From the NCBI RefSeq assembly GCF_006438725.1, contig NZ_RCZD01000005.1, positions 104,380-168,379 on the forward strand: a stretch of 64,000 nt of DNA, given 5' to 3'. Numbering within the stretch: position 1 is the stretch's first letter; the number at the start of each line of letters is the position of its first letter. Both the position numbers and the translations under genes were made by a program. The notes beneath the pieces are model-generated. The model saw only the letters and a list, made by a program, of their open reading frames with translations, was not told the origin of the DNA and made no database searches. The stretch comes from Ewingella americana. GTDB lineage: Bacteria > Pseudomonadota > Gammaproteobacteria > Enterobacterales > Enterobacteriaceae. Below, one piece after another: positions 5,508 to 63,702 of this stretch.

Positions 5508-5528
5508 TTCTTCCTGCCTGTGAGTATA

Positions 5529-51806: not shown

Positions 51807-51970
51807 CAACAAGGCAAAGTATTCAGGGGTGACGGCTATACTAATGCGAACTTTCCAAAACGGCATGGGAAAAAGTGTGCTGATGCAGAAAAATATGTGA
51901 GGAAAACTGTCGAAATTGCAGCGTGATGCCGTTTTTTTCGGCACTTGAACCTGACATACAAGGATAACTA

Positions 51971-51998
51971 TTGCGTGACTCGCTGTGCTGGGTATAAT
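51971..51998 (+). promoter_or_regulatory. leuX promoter, left copy
   Basis: -10 TATAAT at 51993-51998, possible -35 TTGCGT at 51971-51976 with a 16-bp spacer, followed by a GC-rich discriminator (GCCC) as usual for stable-RNA promoters. Confidence 0.7.
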
Positions 51999-52113
51999 GC
52001 CCACGTTTTCCGCATACTACTTTCTGTGCCGAAGTGGCGAAATCGGTAGACGCAGTTGACTCAAAATCAACCGCCGCAAGGCGTGCCGGTTCGATTCCGG
52101 CCTTCGGCACCAA
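51987..52113 (+). repeat. Left 127-bp direct repeat containing leuX
   Basis: Identical to 62275-62401. Contains the -10 box, the 5' leader and the whole tRNA gene plus one base. Acts as a boundary (attL or attR type) of the element between the two copies. Confidence 0.9.
52028..52112 (+). tRNA. leuX: tRNA-Leu (anticodon CAA), left copy
   Basis: 85 nt with encoded CCA. Acceptor stem GCCGAAG/CTTCGGC, anticodon loop CTCAAAA giving anticodon CAA, long class II variable arm, T-arm GGTTCGATTCC. Reads UUG codons. leuX is a frequent integration site for enterobacterial islands. Confidence 0.97.
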
Positions 52114-52121
52114 AATCAATT

Positions 52122-52148
52122 AAATCCTTATTTTGTAAGGATTTTTTT
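52122..52148 (+). terminator. Terminator after left leuX
   Basis: AAATCCTTA/TAAGGATTT stem with a 5-nt loop and seven T. Confidence 0.88.
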
Positions 52149-52199
52149 GTTTTTGAACTTCAATATCGCGTAACCCTCCTACAAAAGGGTATACGAGCG

Positions 52200-54110
52200 A
52201 TGTCCCAGCGTAAAAACCTCTATCGTCGAAGCAGCGGCATTTATGTCGTGCGCATTACCGTTCCTCAACGTTTTCGTCGATATGCTGGTCAGTGTGAGAT
52301 TCACACTTCAACAGGCACCAATCAGCTTCACGAAGCAAAGAAAAGGTCAGCGCACTTGTTAGCGGCTTGGTATCAGACCTTACTTGAGTATGCAGAATTT
52401 GATCATCGCTCTTTGAGCGAAAGCGCTTCGCTACCAAGTGGTGAGGGTATGATCTCATTTAACAAGTTTGCGGAGGTAACTGAGTTACCGGTAATTCAGC
52501 TCATTCAGGTAGCAATAAAAGGTAATTTACCTGTTTTCTGGTTAGCGTCCGGCCAGATGGGTGTCTATGTTGAGAATGTCAGTGATATGGTAGAAGGGCA
52601 TGTGATCAGTGATTTCGCCCTCAAACGTTTGTTCGATTTAGGTAAAAAAAACCGCGCAGTAGGTTATTTACAGCCATTGTCCCCGCTTCAAACATTGCAA
52701 CGTCTGATGAGCGAAGGTTTTTCTGAGGAAGAAAGAGCATTCAGGGTGGCTGGGCATAATCGCAAGAGCGGCTGGTTATTTGATCTACCTGATATGGTGA
52801 TCACACCTCAAAACCTAATGCTTAACAAAGTTCAAGCTGAAAGCCTACGGCTTGATTTGTTGACTAAGAGCATCCCATCAGCAGTAAGTATTCATCGCCT
52901 AGCTCCAGCCCCTATCACAACTCCCATTGCTGCAATCGCTAATGAGTATGTGAACCGCAAGTATTACTCAAAAACGCTGTCATGGCTTTGTGAGGAATAT
53001 TTACAGTATCGACGTAAGGGAAAGATCTCTGAAGCTGCTATTGGTGATATTAGCTATTATTTCGGTCTTATGGTTGAGGTAATGGGAAACATTAAGCTAG
53101 AAAACTTTGATCGTGATTTTCTCCGATCTTATGAAGGTAAGTTACGTGTGATACCCGCAAATCGGAATCTGATGAAAACAAAACACGGCATTGAGACGCT
53201 TGATGAACTCATCATTAAGGTTGCAGAGAGTGGTGATAAGTTGATGTCAGATGAAGCGGTTAGAAAGTATCTGAATGGCGTATTTGGCGCGATCAAGTGG
53301 GCTGTTGGTGATGGCAAGCTATTAAAATCACCGTGCGATAGTTTTTTCCCACGGCATGATAAGGAGCAGAGGGAACAAGACCATACTGATATCTTCGAGG
53401 GGCATGAGATTTGGGCTATCTTTTCTTTACCGTGGTTTTTCGCTGGCACGAGTGAACGTAACGCACAAGGGCGCTTTCACCATTATCGTCCTTTCCACTA
53501 TTGGGCACCCTTGTTAGGTTTACTCACGGGCGCCAGAGTTAACGAGCTATCGCAGCTACTGCTATTGGATATTCTTGAAGAAGATGATGTATTTTATATT
53601 AATCTCGTCAGTGATGATGAAAGCGGCAAGAAACTGAAGAACGTTAATGCTCGCCGCAAGATCCCTATTCATTCAAAGTTAATTGACTTAGGTTTCATCG
53701 AATATGTTAAAGCTTTGAGAAGTGCTGGATACATCCGGTTATTTCCAGAACTTAAGCCACATAAAACAAAAGGATATGGTAGGCCTGTTTCTGCATGGTT
53801 CAATGAATCACTGCTGGCGCGTAGATTGAAATTAGAGCGCAACAGAACCAAGTCGTTCCACTCATTCCGTCATTCTGTATCCACTTTACTTAAAGAGAAA
53901 GGAGTAAGCCCAGAGCTACGTGCACAACTGGTGGGGCATGTGCGTGGCGAGACGGAAACGCAGGTGCGATATAGCAAAGATCTTAAACCTGTGCATATGG
54001 TAGCGGTCATTGAAAAACTGGATTTTGTATTGCCAGAGATCGCTAATTTTAATATTTTGGATGGATTGGCTGCAGTTAGTGATGCGCTAAAAATTAAAAG
54101 AAATAGCTAG
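52200..54110 (+). CDS. Large tyrosine recombinase (island integrase)
   Basis: 636 residues, longer than most phage integrases. N-terminal DUF6538-like segment (NLYRRSSGIYVVRITVPQRFRRYAG), a long middle region, a core-binding SAM-like domain (about 255-380), and a C-terminal catalytic domain with Arg446 (LTGARVNELSQL), His554-x-x-Arg557 (SFHSFRHSVS), His580 (LVGHVRGE) and nucleophile Tyr591 (VRYSKDL). All catalytic residues are present, so it is probably active. I chose ATG 52200 (MSQRKNLYRRS) because the upstream frame reads through the tRNA and its terminator. It lies 88 bases from leuX, the usual place for a tRNA-targeting integrase. Confidence 0.92.
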   Translation: MSQRKNLYRRSSGIYVVRITVPQRFRRYAGQCEIHTSTGTNQLHEAKKRSAHLLAAWYQTLLEYAEFDHRSLSESASLPSGEGMISFNKFAEVTELPVIQLIQVAIKGNLPVFWLASGQMGVYVENVSDMVEGHVISDFALKRLFDLGKKNRAVGYLQPLSPLQTLQRLMSEGFSEEERAFRVAGHNRKSGWLFDLPDMVITPQNLMLNKVQAESLRLDLLTKSIPSAVSIHRLAPAPITTPIAAIANEYVNRKYYSKTLSWLCEEYLQYRRKGKISEAAIGDISYYFGLMVEVMGNIKLENFDRDFLRSYEGKLRVIPANRNLMKTKHGIETLDELIIKVAESGDKLMSDEAVRKYLNGVFGAIKWAVGDGKLLKSPCDSFFPRHDKEQREQDHTDIFEGHEIWAIFSLPWFFAGTSERNAQGRFHHYRPFHYWAPLLGLLTGARVNELSQLLLLDILEEDDVFYINLVSDDESGKKLKNVNARRKIPIHSKLIDLGFIEYVKALRSAGYIRLFPELKPHKTKGYGRPVSAWFNESLLARRLKLERNRTKSFHSFRHSVSTLLKEKGVSPELRAQLVGHVRGETETQVRYSKDLKPVHMVAVIEKLDFVLPEIANFNILDGLAAVSDALKIKRNS

Positions 54111-54132
54111 ATTATCTATGCCTTGAAGTAAA

Positions 54133-54152
54133 TGCCCCTAAAATCAGGGGCA
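54133..54152. terminator. Hairpin between integrase and ATPase genes
   Basis: TGCCCCT/AGGGGCA stem, 6-nt loop, between two convergent genes; no clear T-run. Confidence 0.5.
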
Positions 54153-54158
54153 CAATAT

Positions 54159-56768
54159 CTACGCCCTTCTTGTTTCTATAGCTTTTTTTCTGCTTTCTAT
54201 GGAAACTCTCCATGTTTCTAATATTTCAATATCTTTAATAACTTCATCGGGATGAGGAATAGGAACCATAGCTATAGCAGCTCCGTCATGTGCGAATTTT
54301 GAACACCTTGTCATATTTGAATCTACGAGATGAAAGTCTTCATCTTCAACAACAACATATCTTAATTTCTGTGTTGATATACCCTCAGAAAATCTATTAA
54401 CTACGCCCTGAAATAGAATTTCCTCAACACTCCTCTCCCATGCCATTCTTAAATGATAATAGGCATCTTGTGTTAGTTTTTTGGTTGATTCCTCATCTCC
54501 ATTTTTATGTGAGCGGGAAATTTCATTATGCATTCCCCTAAGAGTTTTTACTCTTTTTGAAGTGCTTAACGCATCGAAAGGCAGTCTGTCGGTGTGAACA
54601 CCAAACCCTTGAGGTGTTTTTCTGATGCATTGTGTTAGATTTTCTGCATTAAGTTCTTGGGATTCTTGTTGAAGAATACATAAGAAATAAATGTCATGCG
54701 TAAATATAATTACTTGTCTTTTTTTAGACTCTTCGACGAGTCGTTTTGCAACATGCCATCTGCGGCGATGATCTAAGGATGATACTGGGTCATCAAAAAT
54801 CACCCCCGACATTGTGTTTGATAAATTTACTTCTGTTAGGAAAGAAGCTATAGCTATTGCTCTTTGTTCTCCTTCGCTGAGAATATCCGATGGCCTTGCA
54901 CCATTAGATTGTTCTAAAATTAGTTTAAATTGATTTCTTCCTCCTGGGGAGGAATTTTGCATGGTTACACGCAGTTCATGAACGTTTAATGATGCTAACT
55001 CTCTGTTAAGTAATGTAATAACTTCTGGCGTGGCAATTGTTCTAGCTAAATCTGTTGATTTTCTTGATATAGCTGTTGTTACGCAGTTAGAGGAGCATTG
55101 GCCTAATTTATTACACAGTTCTAGTTTTGCAATAAAATCCAAGACTAGGTCTTTTAAAGTAGTTAATTTTGAACGTGCCAATAATTCGTTTTGTTCATTT
55201 ATCATCGCCTGCTTAGCGTCAGCATTGAAATTTGCTTCTAAAGCCTTAGCGTCAGCCTCAAGTTTGACGGTTGCCTCACTTAATACGGTATTTGGTGATT
55301 CAGGCAGTGCACTGATATCCTCCCAGTTCATTTTCCCACTTGCAGCAGAAATAATATTTTCTTGACGTTTTTTAAGAGCTTTATCAAATGCAGAGCATGC
55401 TTCTAATAGTAGTGGAGAGTAGTCTGATAACTCATTCTTTAAAGCTTCATCAATATTTAATTTTAAGTCGGTTTTTTCTATTATCTTGAATGCATTTGTA
55501 GCATTGGTTCTTGTCGCAATAGTTAATTTTTCTGCGGCTTGCTGTATGAATTTTTCGAATGAAATTAGTCGCTCAGCGCCATGTTCACCAAGTTCATTTT
55601 GGCACAATGGACATTTATCTGTGGGTTCAAAGTTTGGAAATGACTTTGATGGATAGCATTCTTTCGAGAACTCTCTAGCAGAGTCAAAAAGTATCTTCCA
55701 TGTTTCGTTCCCTGTTCCAATTAACTGGCGGGGAGTTTCTTTAAATTCCTTCGCTGCGATATCTGCTACGCTCTTCGCCGACTTGTATTTTTCAATGAGC
55801 GTTTTTAAATTTATTTCATTTTCCGAAGATATGATTGATGATGATTCCGTAATTACTTTTATTAATCCTTTATAACGTAAGGCTTTTTGTCTAAAAATCT
55901 GAGCTTTTTGTTTAGGATCTGACTCTGCCAATGTTTTTGTTAGCGTATTAAGTCTTTCATTATCTTGGTCTGTAAGTAAAGCAAGTTGTTCCACTTCTAA
56001 CGCTGATGTTTGGTGAGAAAGATTGGATAGCAGAGAACCAGTTTTGGTTCTTGTTTTGGATAGTTCACTGAAAACGTCAAGATTTGGGGTGTTAGATTTT
56101 ATCTCACTGTCTATCTTAGCTCTTAATTTTCCGCAAACACTGACCAGTTCAGTGAGAATATCTAGTCCATAAGGTATATAAGCGAAATCTCCTTGGTTAT
56201 CAATATAAGCTTTAGCACATAATGAATCAAAAGTTGATATATTCGATAGTTCCACTGGGGGGATTTCACCATCTAGCCAGTGTAGAGATAATTCATTCCC
56301 ATCTTTTATGACTTCAAATTCTGCTTCAGCTGGCCCAGTTTTTTCAGGCGGTAAGTTTGCGTTTGGGAGTAATTGTTCGCGTTGATCTCTTGCTCTACAT
56401 ACCTTCTTAAGGAGGCGAGAATAACCTGATTTACCCGCGCCATTTTCCCCATATATTATTGTTAATCCGGTTGGTGATATAGGTAGCTCTTCGTTCTCTG
56501 CTAAGGCATTTATATTTTTTAAATTTCTAATAGACTTTATCTGAATTAATGATGAAACATTCTCTATAGTGGCGATTTGATCCTCAGTAAATGTTAGTGC
56601 TTGTATTTTAATAGGGTTAGGTATGCCGTAATGGGATTTTAAAAGTGCATATACTTCTTCTAAATCTTTTTCGTCTAATTGCCTAGACTCATAAATTCGA
56701 TTTACAGCATGTTGTTGCCAAGCTGGCAGTCTTGTAGACCAATTTTGTATTTCTTGAAGTATCGACAT
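54159..56768 (-). CDS. AAA_13/ABC-type ATPase with zinc-hook-like motif, candidate defence effector
   Basis: 869 residues. ABC/SMC-like split ATPase: Walker A GENGAGKS (107-114), coiled coil (about 220-600) interrupted by CPLCQNELG (Cys386/Cys389, zinc-hook-like), signature LSEGEQRA (630-637), Walker B VIFDDPVSSLD (656-666), H-loop His691. The C-terminal helical domain (about 735-869) has two Arg-x3-Glu pairs in LRMAWERSVEEIL (Arg774-Glu778, Arg779-Glu783) and His827 in CSKFAHDG. This layout recalls RloC/PrrC anticodon nucleases and HEPN-type domains, but homology is my inference. ATG 56768 chosen for its GGAGG Shine-Dalgarno six bases upstream. No restriction-modification genes are adjacent. 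AT-rich, foreign composition. Confidence 0.82.
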   Translation of the reverse strand: MSILQEIQNWSTRLPAWQQHAVNRIYESRQLDEKDLEEVYALLKSHYGIPNPIKIQALTFTEDQIATIENVSSLIQIKSIRNLKNINALAENEELPISPTGLTIIYGENGAGKSGYSRLLKKVCRARDQREQLLPNANLPPEKTGPAEAEFEVIKDGNELSLHWLDGEIPPVELSNISTFDSLCAKAYIDNQGDFAYIPYGLDILTELVSVCGKLRAKIDSEIKSNTPNLDVFSELSKTRTKTGSLLSNLSHQTSALEVEQLALLTDQDNERLNTLTKTLAESDPKQKAQIFRQKALRYKGLIKVITESSSIISSENEINLKTLIEKYKSAKSVADIAAKEFKETPRQLIGTGNETWKILFDSAREFSKECYPSKSFPNFEPTDKCPLCQNELGEHGAERLISFEKFIQQAAEKLTIATRTNATNAFKIIEKTDLKLNIDEALKNELSDYSPLLLEACSAFDKALKKRQENIISAASGKMNWEDISALPESPNTVLSEATVKLEADAKALEANFNADAKQAMINEQNELLARSKLTTLKDLVLDFIAKLELCNKLGQCSSNCVTTAISRKSTDLARTIATPEVITLLNRELASLNVHELRVTMQNSSPGGRNQFKLILEQSNGARPSDILSEGEQRAIAIASFLTEVNLSNTMSGVIFDDPVSSLDHRRRWHVAKRLVEESKKRQVIIFTHDIYFLCILQQESQELNAENLTQCIRKTPQGFGVHTDRLPFDALSTSKRVKTLRGMHNEISRSHKNGDEESTKKLTQDAYYHLRMAWERSVEEILFQGVVNRFSEGISTQKLRYVVVEDEDFHLVDSNMTRCSKFAHDGAAIAMVPIPHPDEVIKDIEILETWRVSIESRKKAIETRRA

Positions 56769-57012
56769 GCAAAGCCTCCATCTGCATGAAAGGGGGGACG
56801 TGCTCAATAGCTATACCACTATGAAGTTAGCGGTGCAGTGATATTTATAAATTTTGTTACTGCAAACGCTTAATCCGTGCCAAAAAACGACCGTTTTCCG
56901 GCACCTTCCAATCACACGTTTTCACATTGTTGGAAAATTAGCCTTGGCTTTTCTGGCAGGCCATCCTATTTTCATCACCGTTTTCTGGCAGGGGCCGGAT
57001 GAGGAGATAACG

Positions 57013-57573
57013 ATGGCGACTTTTGGCTATGGACGTGTTTCTACAACGCAGCAGGATACCGAAAACCAGAGGCTGGAACTCTGGCAAGCTGGATGGAAGA
57101 TCGACTACTGGTTTACTGATGTGATTAGCGGCAAGGTTCCGGCGATGCAGCGCAAAGCATTCTCTGAATTGTTGGGTAAAATCCGCGAAGGCGAAACACT
57201 GGTTGTAGCGAAGCTGGATCGCCTTGGGCGTGATGCGATTGACGTTCTCCAGACGGTCAGGGCACTGGCAGGGCGTAATATCAAGGTGATTGTCCACCAG
57301 CTTGGCACAACTGATCTCACCTCTGCTGCGGGTAAACTTCTATTGTCGATGCTGGCAGCAGTTGCGGAGATGGAGCGTGACCTACTAATTGAACGCACTC
57401 AGGCGGGATTGTCACGAGCAAAAGCCGAAGGCAAGAAGCTGGGTAGACCTTCCAAAATCGCGCCAGAATCCCGTAGAGTGATTATTGAGAAAAGGAACCG
57501 TGGGGTCAGTGTCAGTGCCTTAGCGCGCGAATACGGCGTTTCAAGGGCTACGATCACAAATTTAAACTTATAG
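57013..57573 (+). CDS. Serine recombinase (resolvase/invertase family)
   Basis: 186 residues. Catalytic Ser10 in FGYGRVSTTQQ, KLDRLGRD, and the long E helix LLSMLAAVAEMERDLLIERTQAGLSRAKAEGKKLGRP, followed by a C-terminal helix-turn-helix (VSVSALAREYGVSRATITNL). ATG 57013 follows GAGGAG. Less AT-rich than the flanking genes, suggesting separate acquisition. No transposase or inverted repeats for a Tn3-type unit are evident. It may be a stability resolvase or an invertase of the island. Confidence 0.93.
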   Translation: MATFGYGRVSTTQQDTENQRLELWQAGWKIDYWFTDVISGKVPAMQRKAFSELLGKIREGETLVVAKLDRLGRDAIDVLQTVRALAGRNIKVIVHQLGTTDLTSAAGKLLLSMLAAVAEMERDLLIERTQAGLSRAKAEGKKLGRPSKIAPESRRVIIEKRNRGVSVSALAREYGVSRATITNLNL

Positions 57574-57589
57574 TAAAAGAACCTTCTGG

Positions 57590-57776
57590 GCTATTGACAA
57601 TAACTGTCAGTTGGGGTGGAATCCCTTTATTCCCCAAGGGGGAGAGCGGGCGCCTCTTATACTTGCCGAAGCTTGGCATGTTTGTAACTCAAAGAGATAA
57701 AGCTTATCTATGAGGTCATGTAGCGACTCACTTTTACATAGGTTAGCCCGTGAAAGAATCATTCATATGAAGGTGT
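57590..57776 (+). ncRNA. Candidate structured non-coding RNA upstream of the reverse transcriptase
   Basis: About 200 bp between resolvase and RT genes without a plausible protein. A possible promoter has TTGACA (57594-57599), 17-bp spacer, TGGAAT (57617-57622). Hairpins: TGACA/TGTCA (57595-57609), GGAAT/ATTCC (57618-57633), TGCC/GGCA around 57664-57678, AGATAA/TTATCT (57695-57709), ATGTA/TACAT (57718-57739). One frame stays free of stop codons from about 57564 to 57710 although it lacks a start and Shine-Dalgarno. Several DRT-type defence RTs use an RNA in this position. Prediction only. Confidence 0.4.
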
Positions 57777-57785
57777 TTGATCAAA

Positions 57786-59282
57786 ATGGATCTTGAAAAG
57801 AGCTTACTTAATAGTATTCGTGATGAAGCAACCAAACTCTCAATGCGACATCACGCTTACCATAATTCGATAGCTATTGAAAACAATCGGAAGAAAGAAA
57901 GAACTACATCGCCAAATTTATTACTAGTAAAAAGACCTGATCACTGGCTAGTTGATAAAAAATACAATCCTTTTTATGTAAATAAACATGCAAAAAGTAT
58001 TGCCCATTCTATTACCAAGAAAATAAAGGATGGCACATATGCTCCGCAATCTCCTGAATTAGCAAGCATTCCTAAGAAATCAGGAGGAAGTCGAGAGGTT
58101 TCAATTTATCAAATTCCTGATGCGGCAGTTTCTACACTTTTTTATCACAGACTGTTGAAGAAAAATAAACATAGGTTTAGTTCTTTTTCCTATGCTTACA
58201 GGAATGACAGAAACGTCCATTTTGCAATTCAAGATATATCGGTTGAATTATTACACTCTTCTAGGATTTTTGTTGCTGAATTTGATTTTCGTAAGTTCTT
58301 TGACACTATTTCTCATGAGTTTCTGTATGCTCAGTTTGAACAAAATGGTTTCTTGATAAGTAATGAGGAAAGGAATGTAATAAAAGCTTTCTTATGCGGG
58401 AGAGATAAGGGCATTCCACAAGGGACTTCAATTTCTTTATTCTTAGCAAACTTAACATGTTGGAAATTAGATAAGCAACTTGAAAAAGAAGGTTTACAAT
58501 TCGCGCGTTATGCTGATGATACAATAATTTGGTCTAAAGATTATTCTAAGATAAGTAAAGCCTTTGATATCGTATCGGATTTTTCTATTGAAGCTGGTGT
58601 AGCTATCAACGAAGATAAGTCAGATGGTATAAGTTTATTATGTAATGAAAAAATGCCATCAGAAATAGCAAGCAGAAAGTCTCATATTGAATTCTTAGGT
58701 TATTCTATTTCAGTTGATAATGTATCTATAAAACAAGCGTCTTTAATAAAGATAAAGAGACAAATATCTTTCATCCTCTATAAACACTTAATTCAACCAT
58801 TGAATTCAAGTCCTCTTAAAGCAGTGAAAATACCTGGAAATGATAAGGATGAAGCGCTGCTAAGTGCTATATGTGAAATTCGAAGGTATCTCTATGGTGA
58901 TCTTAACGAAGAAATGATCCGCTCTTATTTGAGTGGCCGTAGTAGTAGAATTTATTTCAAAGGTATCATGAGTTTTTATCCAATCATTAACAACGTTGAG
59001 CAAATGAAATCAATGGATGGATGGTTGGTTAACGAAATTTATAAGGCAGTCCAAAAAAGATCACGTCAACTTGCAAATCACTCTATGCCGAGAATGCATT
59101 CATTGCCATTTTCTGCAAGTAGGAAGGAACTTGTTGCATACTGTGATTCACAGCGTATTCATGGTAAGAAATTAATGAAAATTCCTAGTTTCATGACAAT
59201 TTATAATGCTATGAAAAAAGGAATCACTGAATCCGGAATATTGTCGGTGACAGATCCTCAGTCAGATAATTATGATTACTAA
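57786..59282 (+). CDS. Stand-alone reverse transcriptase, candidate defence-associated (DRT/UG type)
   Basis: 498 residues. RT palm motifs in order: SIPKKSGGSREVSI (about 94-107), motif A EFDFRKFFDTIS with Asp167, motif B GIPQGTSISLFLANL (209-223), motif C RYADDTIIW with Asp244/Asp245, and EFLGYSIS (302-309). About 190 further residues follow with no thumb/maturase, HNH or integrase features that I can recognise, so it is neither a group II intron nor a phage DGR enzyme. The retron hallmark VTG near the C-terminus is not seen. The gene is very AT-rich. ATG 57786 lies 12 bases after AAGG; TTG 57777 is an alternative start. Exact DRT class not determined (DRT2-like is a guess). Confidence 0.85.
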   Translation: MDLEKSLLNSIRDEATKLSMRHHAYHNSIAIENNRKKERTTSPNLLLVKRPDHWLVDKKYNPFYVNKHAKSIAHSITKKIKDGTYAPQSPELASIPKKSGGSREVSIYQIPDAAVSTLFYHRLLKKNKHRFSSFSYAYRNDRNVHFAIQDISVELLHSSRIFVAEFDFRKFFDTISHEFLYAQFEQNGFLISNEERNVIKAFLCGRDKGIPQGTSISLFLANLTCWKLDKQLEKEGLQFARYADDTIIWSKDYSKISKAFDIVSDFSIEAGVAINEDKSDGISLLCNEKMPSEIASRKSHIEFLGYSISVDNVSIKQASLIKIKRQISFILYKHLIQPLNSSPLKAVKIPGNDKDEALLSAICEIRRYLYGDLNEEMIRSYLSGRSSRIYFKGIMSFYPIINNVEQMKSMDGWLVNEIYKAVQKRSRQLANHSMPRMHSLPFSASRKELVAYCDSQRIHGKKLMKIPSFMTIYNAMKKGITESGILSVTDPQSDNYDY

Positions 59283-59284
59283 AG

Positions 59285-59308
59285 CTGCTTCATATATGTA
59301 TGAAGCAG
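59285..59308. terminator. Hairpin after the RT gene
   Basis: CTGCTTCATA/TATGAAGCAG perfect 10-bp stem with loop TATG, starting three bases after the RT stop and before a convergent gene. T-run short. Confidence 0.7.
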
Positions 59309-59323
59309 TTTGATTACGAGTAA

Positions 59324-59821
59324 TTACTCAAACGAAGCCGCAATGACTTCTCCGGTGTTGGCGTTGAAAACGCAAAAATATTGAAGAGGTGTTTGCATTC
59401 CAAGACTATTAATCGCCTTAGCTTGTTGTCCGAACATTTGAATAGTTCGTTTGTTCTCGTCATGCCAGAGGTAGGTGCTGAAAACCGGTTGCGCTTCGCT
59501 ATCCAGCCATACATGGCGAAACGTTGTTTTCTCATCCATTACGTGCTTGCACTTTTTAACGGGGTTATGATGTGCTTTTGCATAGCATTCTGGGTCGCTA
59601 ATTGAGCACAAGGCATTTTGTATCTCTGACGGGGGATCTGCGCTAACAGAGGAAAATGCACTCACTCCCAGCACTAATGAAAGAGTTCCCAGAACACCCC
59701 ATGAAATTGCTCGCAGGCTGCTAATCTGCCATTTTGATGCAACGTGAGTGACTATGTTGTAACAGGCCCAGCTAAGCGCGGCCCCCGTTGCCATAGGTAA
59801 TAAAAAGTCTGATCCCGCCAT
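59324..59821 (-). CDS. Orphan membrane protein
   Basis: 165 residues, not recognised. Two N-terminal hydrophobic helices (about 4-24 and 31-52: SLRAISWGVLGTLSLVLGVSA), then a region outside the membrane with three cysteines (ALCSISDPECYAKAHHNPVKKC) and a C-terminal part ending YFCVFNANTGEVIAASFE. The start at 59821 (MAGSDFLLP) has GAGGG four bases upstream; Met at 59839 is an alternative. It converges on the RT gene. It could belong to the RT system or be independent. Confidence 0.65.
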   Translation of the reverse strand: MAGSDFLLPMATGAALSWACYNIVTHVASKWQISSLRAISWGVLGTLSLVLGVSAFSSVSADPPSEIQNALCSISDPECYAKAHHNPVKKCKHVMDEKTTFRHVWLDSEAQPVFSTYLWHDENKRTIQMFGQQAKAINSLGMQTPLQYFCVFNANTGEVIAASFE

Positions 59822-60061
59822 GATTCCCTCATTTGCCAAACAACATCACTTCTTGTAGTGAGTGCTGGAGACACACAACCAGTGACGACCATCATACGTT
59901 CTTGATTCTATTTGTCACTATTGGTGTTTATTTTGAATCTTGTTAATTGTAGTTATCCAGGCTTCTTATGAGGGTGAATGTGCTCACAATTGGAGATGGT
60001 AGATTCAAAATGTCTAATTTGGAGCGTGGCCTTACAGTGATCAAAATTGCACATTCAGTGC

Positions 60062-60526
60062 ATGAAAAAGACCTTAAGAATACAGTTTGGCGAGCGGGTA
60101 AAAGAGTTGCGCATAGCCACCGGAATGAGCCAGGAAGCCTTTGCCGATCGGTGTGGGTTTGCGCGTAGCTATATGAGCCGCATTGAGCGTGGCGGCTCTA
60201 ACGCGTCTCTGGATGCGATTGAGGTGCTGGCTGGCGCTCTGAATGTCGAGCCATGGCAATTATTGGTGTCTAATTTATCTGAAGATAGCGATCCGGAATT
60301 ACTGGTTCCCTATGCGGCTGATGGCACAAGCTTTCATCCCGGTCTAGCAAGCACCCGCGATGGTTCATTTGGAGTGGGAGAAAAAACCGCTCAGAAGCGT
60401 TTTGGCACATTTTCAGAGGCTCTTGAATACCTACGTAACATGAAGACAGCAAGATGGCGTAGGCCCAACCACAGCGGCAATTGGGGAATTGTTACTGCTG
60501 TGCGATGGGACAAACTCAGGAAGTAG
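60062..60526 (+). CDS. XRE-family helix-turn-helix regulator
   Basis: 154 residues. N-terminal HTH_3/Cro-CI domain (FGERVKELRIATGMSQEAFADRCGFARSYMSRIERGGSNASLDAIEVLAGAL) and a C-terminal extension of about 80 residues ending SGNWGIVTAVRWDKLRK that I do not recognise. MKKTLRIQF at 60062 chosen over upstream ATGs because the HTH normally starts here. More GC-rich than the RT and ATPase genes. Likely controls the island or one of its modules; its target is not visible. Confidence 0.88.
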   Translation: MKKTLRIQFGERVKELRIATGMSQEAFADRCGFARSYMSRIERGGSNASLDAIEVLAGALNVEPWQLLVSNLSEDSDPELLVPYAADGTSFHPGLASTRDGSFGVGEKTAQKRFGTFSEALEYLRNMKTARWRRPNHSGNWGIVTAVRWDKLRK

Positions 60527-61031
60527 TGCAGGTATAAGGATTAAAACGCGGAGGGCTGGATTGATGATCAGCATACCTAAAGGATTTGTTGCCTGCCCTA
60601 GGACTTCCTTTCCTTCAGGAGGGCAGGTATAAATAGTAAAATACGGTTGCGTTACATAGGCGTTACGTATCAAAAAAAACTATTTTTCTCAGTCAATTCA
60701 ACGAAAAACTGACTTTCATGTGATTTCAAAGAATGAACCCATAACCGTGACTTTCTCGTATATTTATATTTTCGAGTGATCTTCTTCCCGAGTATCTCAG
60801 AAATTAGTTAATATATTAATGAAGGCTGCGGCAGCAGCCAGTCGCGACGATGTCGCGACCGGATACTAAAGCTAAGACAGTTAAAACGCTACAAAGCTAG
60901 GCGTTACCTAATTAATGGTTAAGCTCTTTATATAATTGGGTTTTAGGGCGAAATAGCGGGGTTAAATGCAGGGGAATAACCCCTCCCAATAGCTCACCAA
61001 ACTGCCATTCGGAGGGGGCTACTCTCAAAAT
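60527..61031. other. Non-coding, palindrome-rich region of the island
   Basis: About 500 bp with no credible frame. Contains CCTGCCCT/AGGGCAGG (60592-60627, 20-nt loop), the tandem palindromes at 60824-60859, and TAGGCGTTAC twice (60658-60667 and 60899-60908). Could be control DNA, an RNA gene or recombination/replication sites. Confidence 0.55.
60824..60859. repeat. Tandem palindromes GGCTGC-GCAGCC and 2x GTCGCGAC
   Basis: GGCTGC/GCAGCC around GGCA, then two copies of the self-complementary octamer GTCGCGAC separated by GAT (60841-60848, 60852-60859). GC-rich block within AT-rich DNA; 11-bp periodicity fits dimeric protein sites on one face of the helix. Confidence 0.75.
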
Positions 61032-61988
61032 CTACCGGCGCTTATACGAATCTAGTCGCCTTAATACAGAGGATAAGGATTTCTTGAGTTGTTTCTCTTC
61101 AGATATCTCTCCGGTCATTAATTTTATTATTTGGGCTAATCCCATGTCTGAATGTTCGGATATACGGGAAGCAAGCCAAACATTAACCCAGTGGGGAATA
61201 TGCATTGCCAGATGTTTTTGTTTGGTTACGGAGCATTCAAGTCTTTCTGTTACTTGATCTATGCCCAATACATGGCATTTACCATCTTTGAATGCTCCTT
61301 GCTGCAATTTCTTCCATGTATCGCGATGAGATTTGGATTGATACTGGGCTAGCCCCCATTGCAGGTTCCGGTTTAGCAACAATGCAGCGATTTTTACATC
61401 GCCTGTCCATTTTTCGAGTGCAAATTTCTCCGCTAACGACCAATCAAATTCTTCGTTCATGAATAAGTCATCATAAATTTCAGACTTCACTTTCTTACGG
61501 TGCCCAATCATCCAAGCCCAGTGTAAATCGATAAGTTGTCGATCTATGCTCATCTGGTTTGGTATATCGTCCAAAGTAGTTTTAACTGAAGGGGGGAGCG
61601 CTCTAAATCGAGGTGCAATATGTTGAGTCAGGTTCAGTGCAATCGATAGTTCAACCGCTTCATTTCGTAGAGACAAATATTCTTTTTTTTTCTGCAAGAG
61701 TTTTTGAAGCTTTGTTATTAAATCAGCATTATTGCTAGTCTGTGCTAATTTTTCAGCATTCGCTGCAAGAACAGAAAATGGCTTCACTATTGTAGTCGCC
61801 GGTTCTGAATCGCCAGATGAAATGTGCACCATTGATACTGGATGGTTATGCAGATCATCAGTCACTAGCATATCAACTGCATGAGTCTCATCTAGGTGTG
61901 CTAAAAGTCTGTCGAGTTCTATTGGTAGCTCTTCTGAAAGCTTGTTTTTTCCGCGATACTTCTCATTGTTGCTGTCTATTAAAGTCAT
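61032..61988 (-). CDS. Unrecognised protein, 318 residues
   Basis: No family recognised. Soluble, charged and mostly helical by composition: a Lys/Leu-rich helix around 95-125 (KLQKLLQKKKEYLSLRNEAVELSIAL), a Trp-rich middle (LHWAWMIGHRKKVK, EFDWSLAEKFALEKWTG) and a basic C-terminus (KSLSSVLRRLDSYKRR). No signal peptide or membrane segment. Codon usage and AT content fit the island. The ATG at 61988 is preferred; a TTG at 62000 would add four codons. It is the last gene before the right leuX. The 270 bp upstream of it hold AT-rich DNA with no other gene. Confidence 0.65.
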   Translation of the reverse strand: MTLIDSNNEKYRGKNKLSEELPIELDRLLAHLDETHAVDMLVTDDLHNHPVSMVHISSGDSEPATTIVKPFSVLAANAEKLAQTSNNADLITKLQKLLQKKKEYLSLRNEAVELSIALNLTQHIAPRFRALPPSVKTTLDDIPNQMSIDRQLIDLHWAWMIGHRKKVKSEIYDDLFMNEEFDWSLAEKFALEKWTGDVKIAALLLNRNLQWGLAQYQSKSHRDTWKKLQQGAFKDGKCHVLGIDQVTERLECSVTKQKHLAMHIPHWVNVWLASRISEHSDMGLAQIIKLMTGEISEEKQLKKSLSSVLRRLDSYKRR

Positions 61989-62274
61989 CAGATTTCTCAA
62001 TTCTTGCTATTGATAAGCGAAACGATATTTTCTGGACTTAGGCTTTACAATGCTTTAGATAGGCTATTTTTAAATAAAAACATAACTATTTGATTTTTAA
62101 TCACATATTTTTTTATGGGATCCTGAGGGAAATAGTTGAAAGATTTATAAACGATACTAGCTCCTCCTACAAAATCATCCTACAATCAGTCTTTAAGAAT
62201 GATTTTTTAATCTTCTAGTTACGCGATTCGCAAGTTCAAAAAGGCCGATATATTTAAGGTGTTAAATCAGCTGG

Positions 62275-62401
62275 GCTGGGTATAATGCCCACGTTTTCCG
62301 CATACTACTTTCTGTGCCGAAGTGGCGAAATCGGTAGACGCAGTTGACTCAAAATCAACCGCCGCAAGGCGTGCCGGTTCGATTCCGGCCTTCGGCACCA
62401 A
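62275..62401 (+). repeat. Right 127-bp direct repeat containing leuX
   Basis: Identical to 51987-52113. The left edge of identity lies between the -35 and -10 positions of the leuX promoter, so this copy keeps the TATAAT box (62281-62286) but has different DNA at -35. Confidence 0.9.
62316..62400 (+). tRNA. leuX: tRNA-Leu (anticodon CAA), right copy
   Basis: 85 nt, base-for-base identical to the left copy including CCA. All tRNA elements are intact. Its promoter has the -10 box but no good -35, so expression may be weaker. Confidence 0.97.
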
Positions 62402-62413
62402 CAGTATGTAAAT

Positions 62414-62438
62414 AGACCTCAACTGAGGTCTTTTTTTA
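62414..62438 (+). terminator. Terminator after right leuX
   Basis: AGACCTC/GAGGTCT stem, loop AACT, then a run of seven T. Sequence unrelated to the left copy's terminator. Confidence 0.88.
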
Positions 62439-62523
62439 TGCCTAAAATCCAGTCCCCGCAAGGCTTCCCTCGCTTTTTCAGTCAACATAAGTCAACCTGA
62501 TTCAATCTACGTCAACTTACTGA

Positions 62524-62573
62524 TGTGGGTACAATTGTGGGTATATCTCGCTTCGATAATGTTTGTACCCACA
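62524..62573. promoter_or_regulatory. Inverted repeats in the promoter region of the second integrase
   Basis: TGTGGGTACAA (62524-62534) and its exact complement TTGTACCCACA (62563-62573), with an extra half-site TGTGGGTA at 62536-62543, around a possible -10 GATAAT (62555-62560). Suggests a repressor or integrase-autoregulation site. Confidence 0.6.
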
Positions 62574-62598
62574 CAGAACCTTTGAAAGGATATTCAAC

Positions 62599-63702
62599 AT
62601 GGCTCTGAGTGATGTGAAGGTTCGTACAGCCAAGCCTGAAGCTAAAGCGTATAAGCTCACAGATGGCGACGGCATGGTGTTGCTGGTTCATCCTAACGGT
62701 TCAAAGTACTGGCGCTTACGTTATCGCTTTGATGGTAAGGAGAAGATGCTGGCGTTGGGTATATACCCAGAAGTAACGCTTGCTGATGCCAGGGCGCGAC
62801 GTGATGAAGCTCGTAAGCAGTTAGCGAACGGCATCGATCCTAGTGATAAAAAGAAAACAGATAAGATCGAGCTGGCTGAAACTCGAACATTCAAAGAAGT
62901 TGCGCTTGAATGGCATGCCACGAATAAGAAGTGGTCAAAGGATCACAGCAATCGTGTTTTGAAAACCCTCGAGGACAACCTCTTCCCCTCTATCGGTAAA
63001 TGCAATATTGCCGAACTTAAAACCCGCGATTTGCTGGCACCTATCAAAGCGGTAGAGAAGTCTGGACGTCTTGAGGTGGCTTCGCGCCTACAACAGCGTA
63101 CGACAGCAATTATGCGCTATGCCGTACAAAGCGGTTTGACCGACTACAATCCTGCGCAGGAAATGGCTGGAGCCGTCGCTACAGCAAAACGGCAACATCG
63201 GCCCGCCTTAGAACTTAGCCGTACTCCTGAACTACTTCACCGTATCGACACCTACACCGGCAGACCGCTCACTCGTTTGGCTATAGAGATGACGTTGCTG
63301 GTATTTATCCGTTCAAGTGAACTGCGTTTCGCCCGTTGGTCAGAGATAGACTTCGAGACATCAATGTGGACGATACCGGCAGACCGCGAACCATTAGAAG
63401 GCGTTAAGCACTCTCACCGTGGGTCAAAGATGCATACGCCACATCTGGTACCCTTATCTCGGCAGGCCCTTACAGTCCTTGAGAAAATAAAACGGTTAAA
63501 TGGTAATCGCGATTTAATTTTCGTTGGCGATCATGATCCTCGCAAACCGATGAGTGAAAATACGGTGAACAATGCACTCCGGGTGATGGGCTATGACACG
63601 AAAGTTGAAGTCTGTGGTCATGGTTTCAGAACCATGGCATGTAGTTCATTGATTGAGTCAGGGATTTGGTCAAAGGATGCGGTAGAACGGCAGATGAGCC
63701 AT
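62599..63702 (+). pseudogene. P4-type integrase, interrupted by an IS3-family insertion
   Basis: 368 codons of a prophage P4/CP4-type tyrosine recombinase. DUF4102 arm-binding domain (VRTAKPEAKAYKLTDGDGMVLLVHPNGSKYWRLRYRFDGKEKMLALGIYP), core-binding domain, and catalytic residues Arg238 (FIRSSELRFARW), His341-x-x-Arg344 (GHGFRTMA) and His368 (RQMSH). After that His the family's usual K/E-rich segment and the catalytic Tyr are missing; the sequence changes to IS DNA. It should be inactive. The reading frame stays open into the IS. ATG 62599 follows AAAGGA. Confidence 0.88.

Follow-up and report, generated by a model that had tools for sequence, protein, structure and literature searches.

The reverse transcriptase (RT) gene carried in a genomic island of Ewingella americana raises the question of which class of RT it encodes, and whether the structured DNA directly upstream specifies its template. 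We analyzed the locus within the whole stretch of 64,000 nucleotides in which it was presented (the window; features in Table 1) and conclude with high confidence that the RT and the directly upstream structured noncoding RNA (ncRNA) are a DRT9 pair, predicted to act against phage, in which a tract of four uridines (U4) would be copied repeatedly into poly-dA primed on C-terminal tyrosines. Obtained here are the family, the catalytic and primer residues, a conserved RNA structure, the template tract, a host ExoI-family gene and the island location. The pair is a well-preserved member of a known family with one uncommon feature, the missing hairpin SL6. With it, an enterobacterial island joins a family that makes RNA-templated, protein-primed DNA homopolymers, a mechanism established only in 2025.

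Table 1. Features of the DRT9 locus and its island (window positions)
Feature	Position	Strand	Evidence or remark
tRNA-Leu(CAA), left island end	52028..52112	+	Identical to right copy
Island integrase, DUF6538 and phage integrase domain	52056..54110	+	Pfam; PHROG integrase
AAA ATPase, candidate defence protein PDC-S06	54159..56807	-	PADLOC 838.5 bits; Pfam AAA_13
Serine resolvase gene just upstream, island neighbour	56854..57573	+	Pfam Resolvase 124.4 bits
Putative promoter, TTGACA (57594-57599), 17 nt, TGGAAT (57617-57622)	57594..57622	+	Comparative
DRT9 ncRNA core, SL1 through closing stem	57626..57753	+	Covariance model R1
SL1, UCCCC-AAG-GGGGA	57631..57643	+	Single-sequence fold and SL1 in consensus
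Closing stem, 5' strand GCGGGC, pairs with 57746-57751 (GCCCGU)	57646..57651	+	Consensus, covariance match
Inner hairpin UGCCGA-AGC-UUGGCA, at presumed SL4 place	57664..57678	+	Fold
Inner hairpin at presumed SL5 place	57688..57714	+	Fold
UUUU template tract	57732..57735	+	U4 or longer in 51 of 52 core loci; templating role reported in PMC12483538
Closing stem, 3' strand GCCCGU	57746..57751	+	Consensus, covariance match
Spacer without the terminator-like SL6 of relatives	57754..57785	+	Hairpin search, folding
AAGGTG, possible ribosome site of RT gene	57770-57775	+	Read by eye
DRT9 (UG28) reverse transcriptase, 498 aa	57786..59282	+	Drt9 profile, solved-RT alignment, PDB folds
Inverted repeat past RT, possible terminator	59267..59326	.	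75% complementary; not listed by terminator scan
tRNA-Leu(CAA), right island end	62316..62400	+	Identical to left copy

The RT frame is unbroken (ATG at 57786, stop at 59280-59282; a 501-aa version begins at an in-frame TTG, 57777) and matched the PADLOC Drt9 profile with 702.8 bits over residues 4-496, the second-best DRT class, UG17 (now DRT10), reaching 88 bits. The complete RT motif and the roughly 190 extra C-terminal residues that the original prediction had pointed out were both recovered: the YADD active site is Y242-D245, and the Pfam RVT_1 match stops at residue 308, with 190 residues beyond it. An N-terminal helix is predicted at residues 3-39, and the architecture is RT-only, as in DRT9. 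The solved DRT9 RT (9ioa and five more entries of identical sequence) aligned to residues 1-498, and the E. coli RT at locus L004, whose sequence begins like that of the solved structure, was 56.9% identical to the window RT (282 of 496 aligned positions). For a structure predicted from 32 aligned sequences (mean pLDDT 85.1; residues 139-142 and 491-498 below 50), the six top PDB folds were DRT9 chains, with TM-scores by query of 0.89-0.94. As judged by profile, alignment and predicted fold, the RT is an ordinary full-length member of DRT9 (UG28), and the earlier suggestion of a divergent or new subtype does not hold.

Residues to which PMC12489045 assigns roles in RNA stacking, the catalytic lock, catalysis and priming in E. 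coli (Y25, K98, R104, R140, YADD, Y496 and Y498) correspond to Y25, K97, R103, R139, Y242-D245, Y496 and Y498 of the window RT. The DRT9 primer tyrosines, Y496 and Y498, were unchanged in all 32 aligned sequences, the window counted, and among the full-length proteins of the core set described below YADD was present in 48 of 48 and at least two tyrosines within the last 12 residues in 47 of 48. In contrast, R205 and K208, reported to hold a flipped SL4 base in the E. coli enzyme (PMC12489045), are not conserved, the aligned residues being C204 and D207.

Relatives were collected by scanning a one-genome-per-species collection (84,980 species), which gave 96 stretches and 61 loci. The core set of 52 loci, defined by RT identity of at least 47% and readable upstream DNA, comprised 48 loci from the scan, the window, one E. 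coli locus and two viral contigs. Left out were L009, whose contig begins 110 nt before the RT, the duplicates L001, L005, L006, L068, L071 and L072, ten loci below 47% identity, L101, and L066 and L067 (short matches only); four loci with cut or broken RT frames (L010, L033, L041 and L054) were retained for the RNA counts.

A covariance model (R1) built from 51 relatives, with the window left out, was scanned against both strands of the 64 kb at E up to 1 and gave the ncRNA core of Table 1 as its single match (61.4 bits, E 3.9e-11). DRT9 loci outside the model, L103 (92.3 bits) and L116 (47.8 bits), also matched R1, while none of eight loci bearing other RTs did. RNAalifold on the 52 loci recovered SL1, the closing stem CGG...CCG and a 3' hairpin, with both-sided change in 10 of 13 consensus pairs; each of the four closing-stem pairs was kept in 50-52 of the 52 loci, and in the window the closing stem is completely paired. 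Single-sequence folding of 57628-57786 was rejected as proof of an RNA, its z of -1.35 not being significant (24 of 200 shuffles equally stable). Thus, the upstream structure is taken as real because the R1 comparison finds it, whereas the hairpins on which the original prediction had relied are weak evidence by themselves; its pairing of a defence-type RT with an adjacent template RNA was borne out.

The template tract was located through the E. coli numbering of PMC12489045, which fits L004 with nucleotide 1 at 5513 (U67, C94, A106, G114, U121, U124-127 and U131 match) and thereby places the window template. Across the 52 core loci the tract is U4 in 40, U5 in 10, and U8 and U3 in one each; defence by the Salmonella system is reportedly lost when even one template uridine is missing (PMC12483538). 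In a Luteimonas DRT9 locus (L042, 5900-5925), UUUAA stands where the U4 tract is expected. In a Deferribacterales MAG (L018, 5644-6001), 235 nt separate the U tract from the RT start, as against 51-89 nt in the 51 other core loci.

The inner part of the RNA is less uniform. The SL5 stem covaries in 15 relatives (score 0.658, reached by 0 of 500 shuffles; slid controls at most 0.172), and a model of SL5 and the template loop built from these 15 (R2) gave no match, at E up to 1, in the locus of the window's genome (L102) or in its clade mates L007, L008, L010, L012, L052 and L054. Since R2 misses the window's clade, the SL5 covariation holds for the 15 relatives and not directly for this clade, whose RNA departs in its inner part from the studied systems.

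Of the 52 core loci, 51 carry a hairpin whose tail is rich in T (SL6) in the interval from the closing stem to the RT start, and the same search found no SL6 in the window, the sole exception. The SL6-type hairpins of L034 and L037 are weak (five pairs with one G-C, and nine pairs with no G-C, respectively), and L103 and L116 each carry an SL6-like hairpin by eye. The window spacer of 32 nt folds at -4.5 kcal/mol, compared with 43-51 nt and -14.7 to -20.6 kcal/mol in six relatives. The missing hairpin could reflect damage, leaving a nonworking RNA gene beside an RT of intact appearance, and both its absence here alone among 52 loci and the lineage-specific SL4 pocket residues fit such decay. 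We nevertheless regard decay as very unlikely, given that the RT frame is unbroken with its key residues kept, that a cluster of 25 protein sequences (P0001) is 97% identical to the window RT, that the RNA core retains its R1 score, a fully paired closing stem and the U4 tract, and that a legend in PMC12483538 gives the mature Salmonella RNA without SL6. SL6 being reported as absent from the mature RNA, it is not required for DRT9 membership; the same report suggests that it acts in termination and can be dispensed with for poly-dA synthesis.

On the reading of a well-preserved DRT9 pair, the lack of SL6 makes it likely that RNA and RT share one transcript, and the window RNA is probably the leader of the RT mRNA; a terminator scan of the + strand from the RNA end to 59600 listed no site. 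Template and enzyme would then be co-produced, which is not expected in loci with SL6. The promoter previously proposed is present as a TTGACA-17-TGGAAT pair but absent from the list of the consensus promoter scan, whose five sites fell below the shuffled mean of 7.0 and which was rejected as proof; TTGA occurs 31-34 nt ahead of the RNA region in 21 of the 52 loci, a count in which the RNA starts of L003 and L004 are misplaced.

A more far-reaching version of this arrangement is conceivable, and we hold it as tentative and rather doubtful: a terminator-less DRT9 whose template RNA would exist solely as the RT mRNA's 5' leader and would need release, in a clade where U-A would replace a C-G contact between protomers, giving separate, non-mixing assemblies. 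If the terminator-less part is true, every transcript would give both template and enzyme, and the message may be bound by the RT that it encodes. The window offers a natural test of the need for SL6, the hairpin having been removed by nature. Among the papers retrieved by literature searches, no title or abstract opening mentions a DRT9 without terminator; one may still be in print.

The contact concerned is C94-G114, reported between protomers of E. coli DRT9 (PMC12489045). The aligned window bases, U57698 and A57722, were left uncalled by our fixed rule, and U57698 pairs inside a stem in the best fold. Both positions were called in 46 of the 52 loci (C-G 34, U-A 10, C-A 1, U-G 1), the six uncounted being L012, L030, L049, L051 and the window (no loop call) and L061 (neither G nor A); the Fisher p of 3e-8 ignores kinship and depends on a calling rule written after the sequences were inspected. 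Two clades, the window's and one of Bacteroidota, tend to have U and A at these places. On the RT tree, in which 44 rows bear both calls, there are just three independent loop-base changes, as a rule with two matching and none against; a sign test (median p 0.5) is unable to attain significance, and L012, in the window's clade, does not fit the covariation by eye. From these alignments, the covariation of C94-G114 is a weak lead, not a result.

The original prediction had named both DRT2 and DRT9 as models; the naming of DRT9 proved apt, but it was the DRT2 model that was followed. It would have rolling copying of a longer upstream RNA produce repeats that encode a toxic protein through the stop-free frame at 57564-57710, and we consider this highly improbable. 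DRT2 and DRT9 are related, upstream RNA is found in both, and the window RT reaches 77 bits on the PADLOC Drt2 profile; against this, the NCBIfam Drt2 score is 64.1 bits for a cut-off of 390, the DRT2 structure ranks just 28 among the PDB folds (TM by query 0.46), the upstream RNA fits the DRT9 covariance model, and the frame, with no known role in a DRT9 RNA, begins within the resolvase gene and mostly precedes the U4 tract. The open DRT2-like template was rejected because the RT falls below the Drt2 cut-off and the frame begins inside the resolvase gene; in DRT9, four uridines serve as the template, and the reported product is poly-dA, which is not transcribed. That the RT belongs to a group II intron, retron, DGR or CRISPR-associated type has a negligible chance of being right, since its general similarity (group II RT/maturase 142.1 bits, St85 retron RT 74.7 bits) does not attain the curated cut-offs of 300 and 235, the best folds beyond DRT9, group II-type RTs, reach TM by query of 0.56-0.58, and an Rfam search of 51900-63000 at E up to 1 found two tRNAs and nothing else. 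The RT thus stands apart from introns, retrons and DGRs, as originally read from the lack of intron or retron features, and the structure upstream of it is conserved.

For the DRT9 pair, a course of events can be proposed by analogy with the published Salmonella and E. coli systems. The promoter near 57594-57622 would give one RNA and RT transcript, and the functional RNA would be cut or trimmed from the leader, as the missing SL6 suggests. RT and RNA would assemble into a hexamer, in which dATP would be added opposite the U4 tract through repeated realignment and the chain would be primed on, and kept on, the C-terminal tyrosines. Poly-dA would be made constitutively and cleared by ExoI in healthy cells, until a phage factor shielding the 3' ends of DNA allows it to accumulate and the infected cell dies. 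For published DRT9, T5 gp58 is described as such a 3'-end-shielding phage protein and ExoI as the silencer (PMC12483538, PMC12489045); the host genome encodes an ExoI C-terminal domain (360.4 bits, cut-off 27), that is, an ExoI-family gene.

Compared with the Salmonella enterica and E. coli DRT9 systems (PMC12483538, PMC12489045; PDB 9nlv, 9nlx, 9ioa, 9vku, 9vma), the window has the same RT fold, length, YADD, Y25 and Y496/Y498, likewise has SL1, the closing stem and the U4 tract in the RNA ahead of the RT, and has an ExoI-family gene in its host; it differs in an RT identity of 57%, another RT clade, the lack of SL6, and the bases of SL5 and the template loop. In the 61-row RT tree, the window pairs first with Endozoicomonas (100/99); Morganella, Colwellia and Rosenbergiella join next (98/94), followed by a Pseudomonas (100/98), in a clade separate from the branch of E. 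coli L004 and Photobacterium sanctipauli. The Endozoicomonas (L007), Morganella (L008), Colwellia (L010) and Rosenbergiella (L052) members share 66-69% RT identity with the window and the same RNA type, but retain SL6. DRT10 (UG17) and DRT2 (UG2) are, like DRT9, defence RTs that copy their own ncRNA repetitively, with tandem repeats and SLATT partners in DRT10 and gene-carrying repeats in DRT2, as reported in PMC12632851; the window RT scores 88 and 77 bits on their profiles and 703 on Drt9. DRT9 is rare around the host: with its own genome counted each time, it occurs in 1 of 6 genomes at the level of the genus, 3 of 394 at that of the order and 2 of 369 at that of the class, and at full profile length in 2 of 295 genomes of the family, own included, where the best matches of 83 others are at most 138 bits.

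The predicted island location was confirmed, the RT lying between the two identical tRNA-Leu(CAA) copies. The island measures 10.3 kb, its tRNA-Leu ends lie within 144-nt direct repeats that are 96% alike, and its G+C is 0.402 (RT 0.335; window 10-52 kb 0.531). In a same-genus genome (G024), the left and right flanks join at a single tRNA, an empty site. Besides the genes of Table 1, the island holds an HTH protein and two proteins without Pfam match; for a 322-aa protein (61032-62000, - strand), searches of PADLOC, Pfam, NCBIfam and PHROGs gave nothing at E up to 0.001. Six island proteins were searched by tblastn (E up to 1e-5) against the loci collected up to that stage, with copies of the window's locus set aside. 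Nothing matched the ATPase or the 171-, 159- and 322-aa proteins; the resolvase gave only weak matches, in L051 and in a Hymenobacter plasmid locus present in two copies (L006, L047), and for the integrase the only match covered 32 residues, in the G024 flank (two copies). A link of these neighbours to the RT was rejected.

Beyond the core set, a divergent DRT9 clade (L053, L055-L060, L063-L065 and L101) has 32-39% RT identity, and five tested members score 484-585 bits on Drt9; against this clade the ncRNA model reached a best E of 8.3. Three Micrococcaceae members and one Demequina share an alignable element upstream of the RT, and GGTTCC-AAGA-GGAAC and CTCATTTT are common to the three Micrococcaceae; the element is perhaps a different template RNA. 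On a Thioclava plasmid (L101:3908-6038), the RT, at 484 bits on the DRT9 profile, overlaps the start of a SLATT-domain gene.
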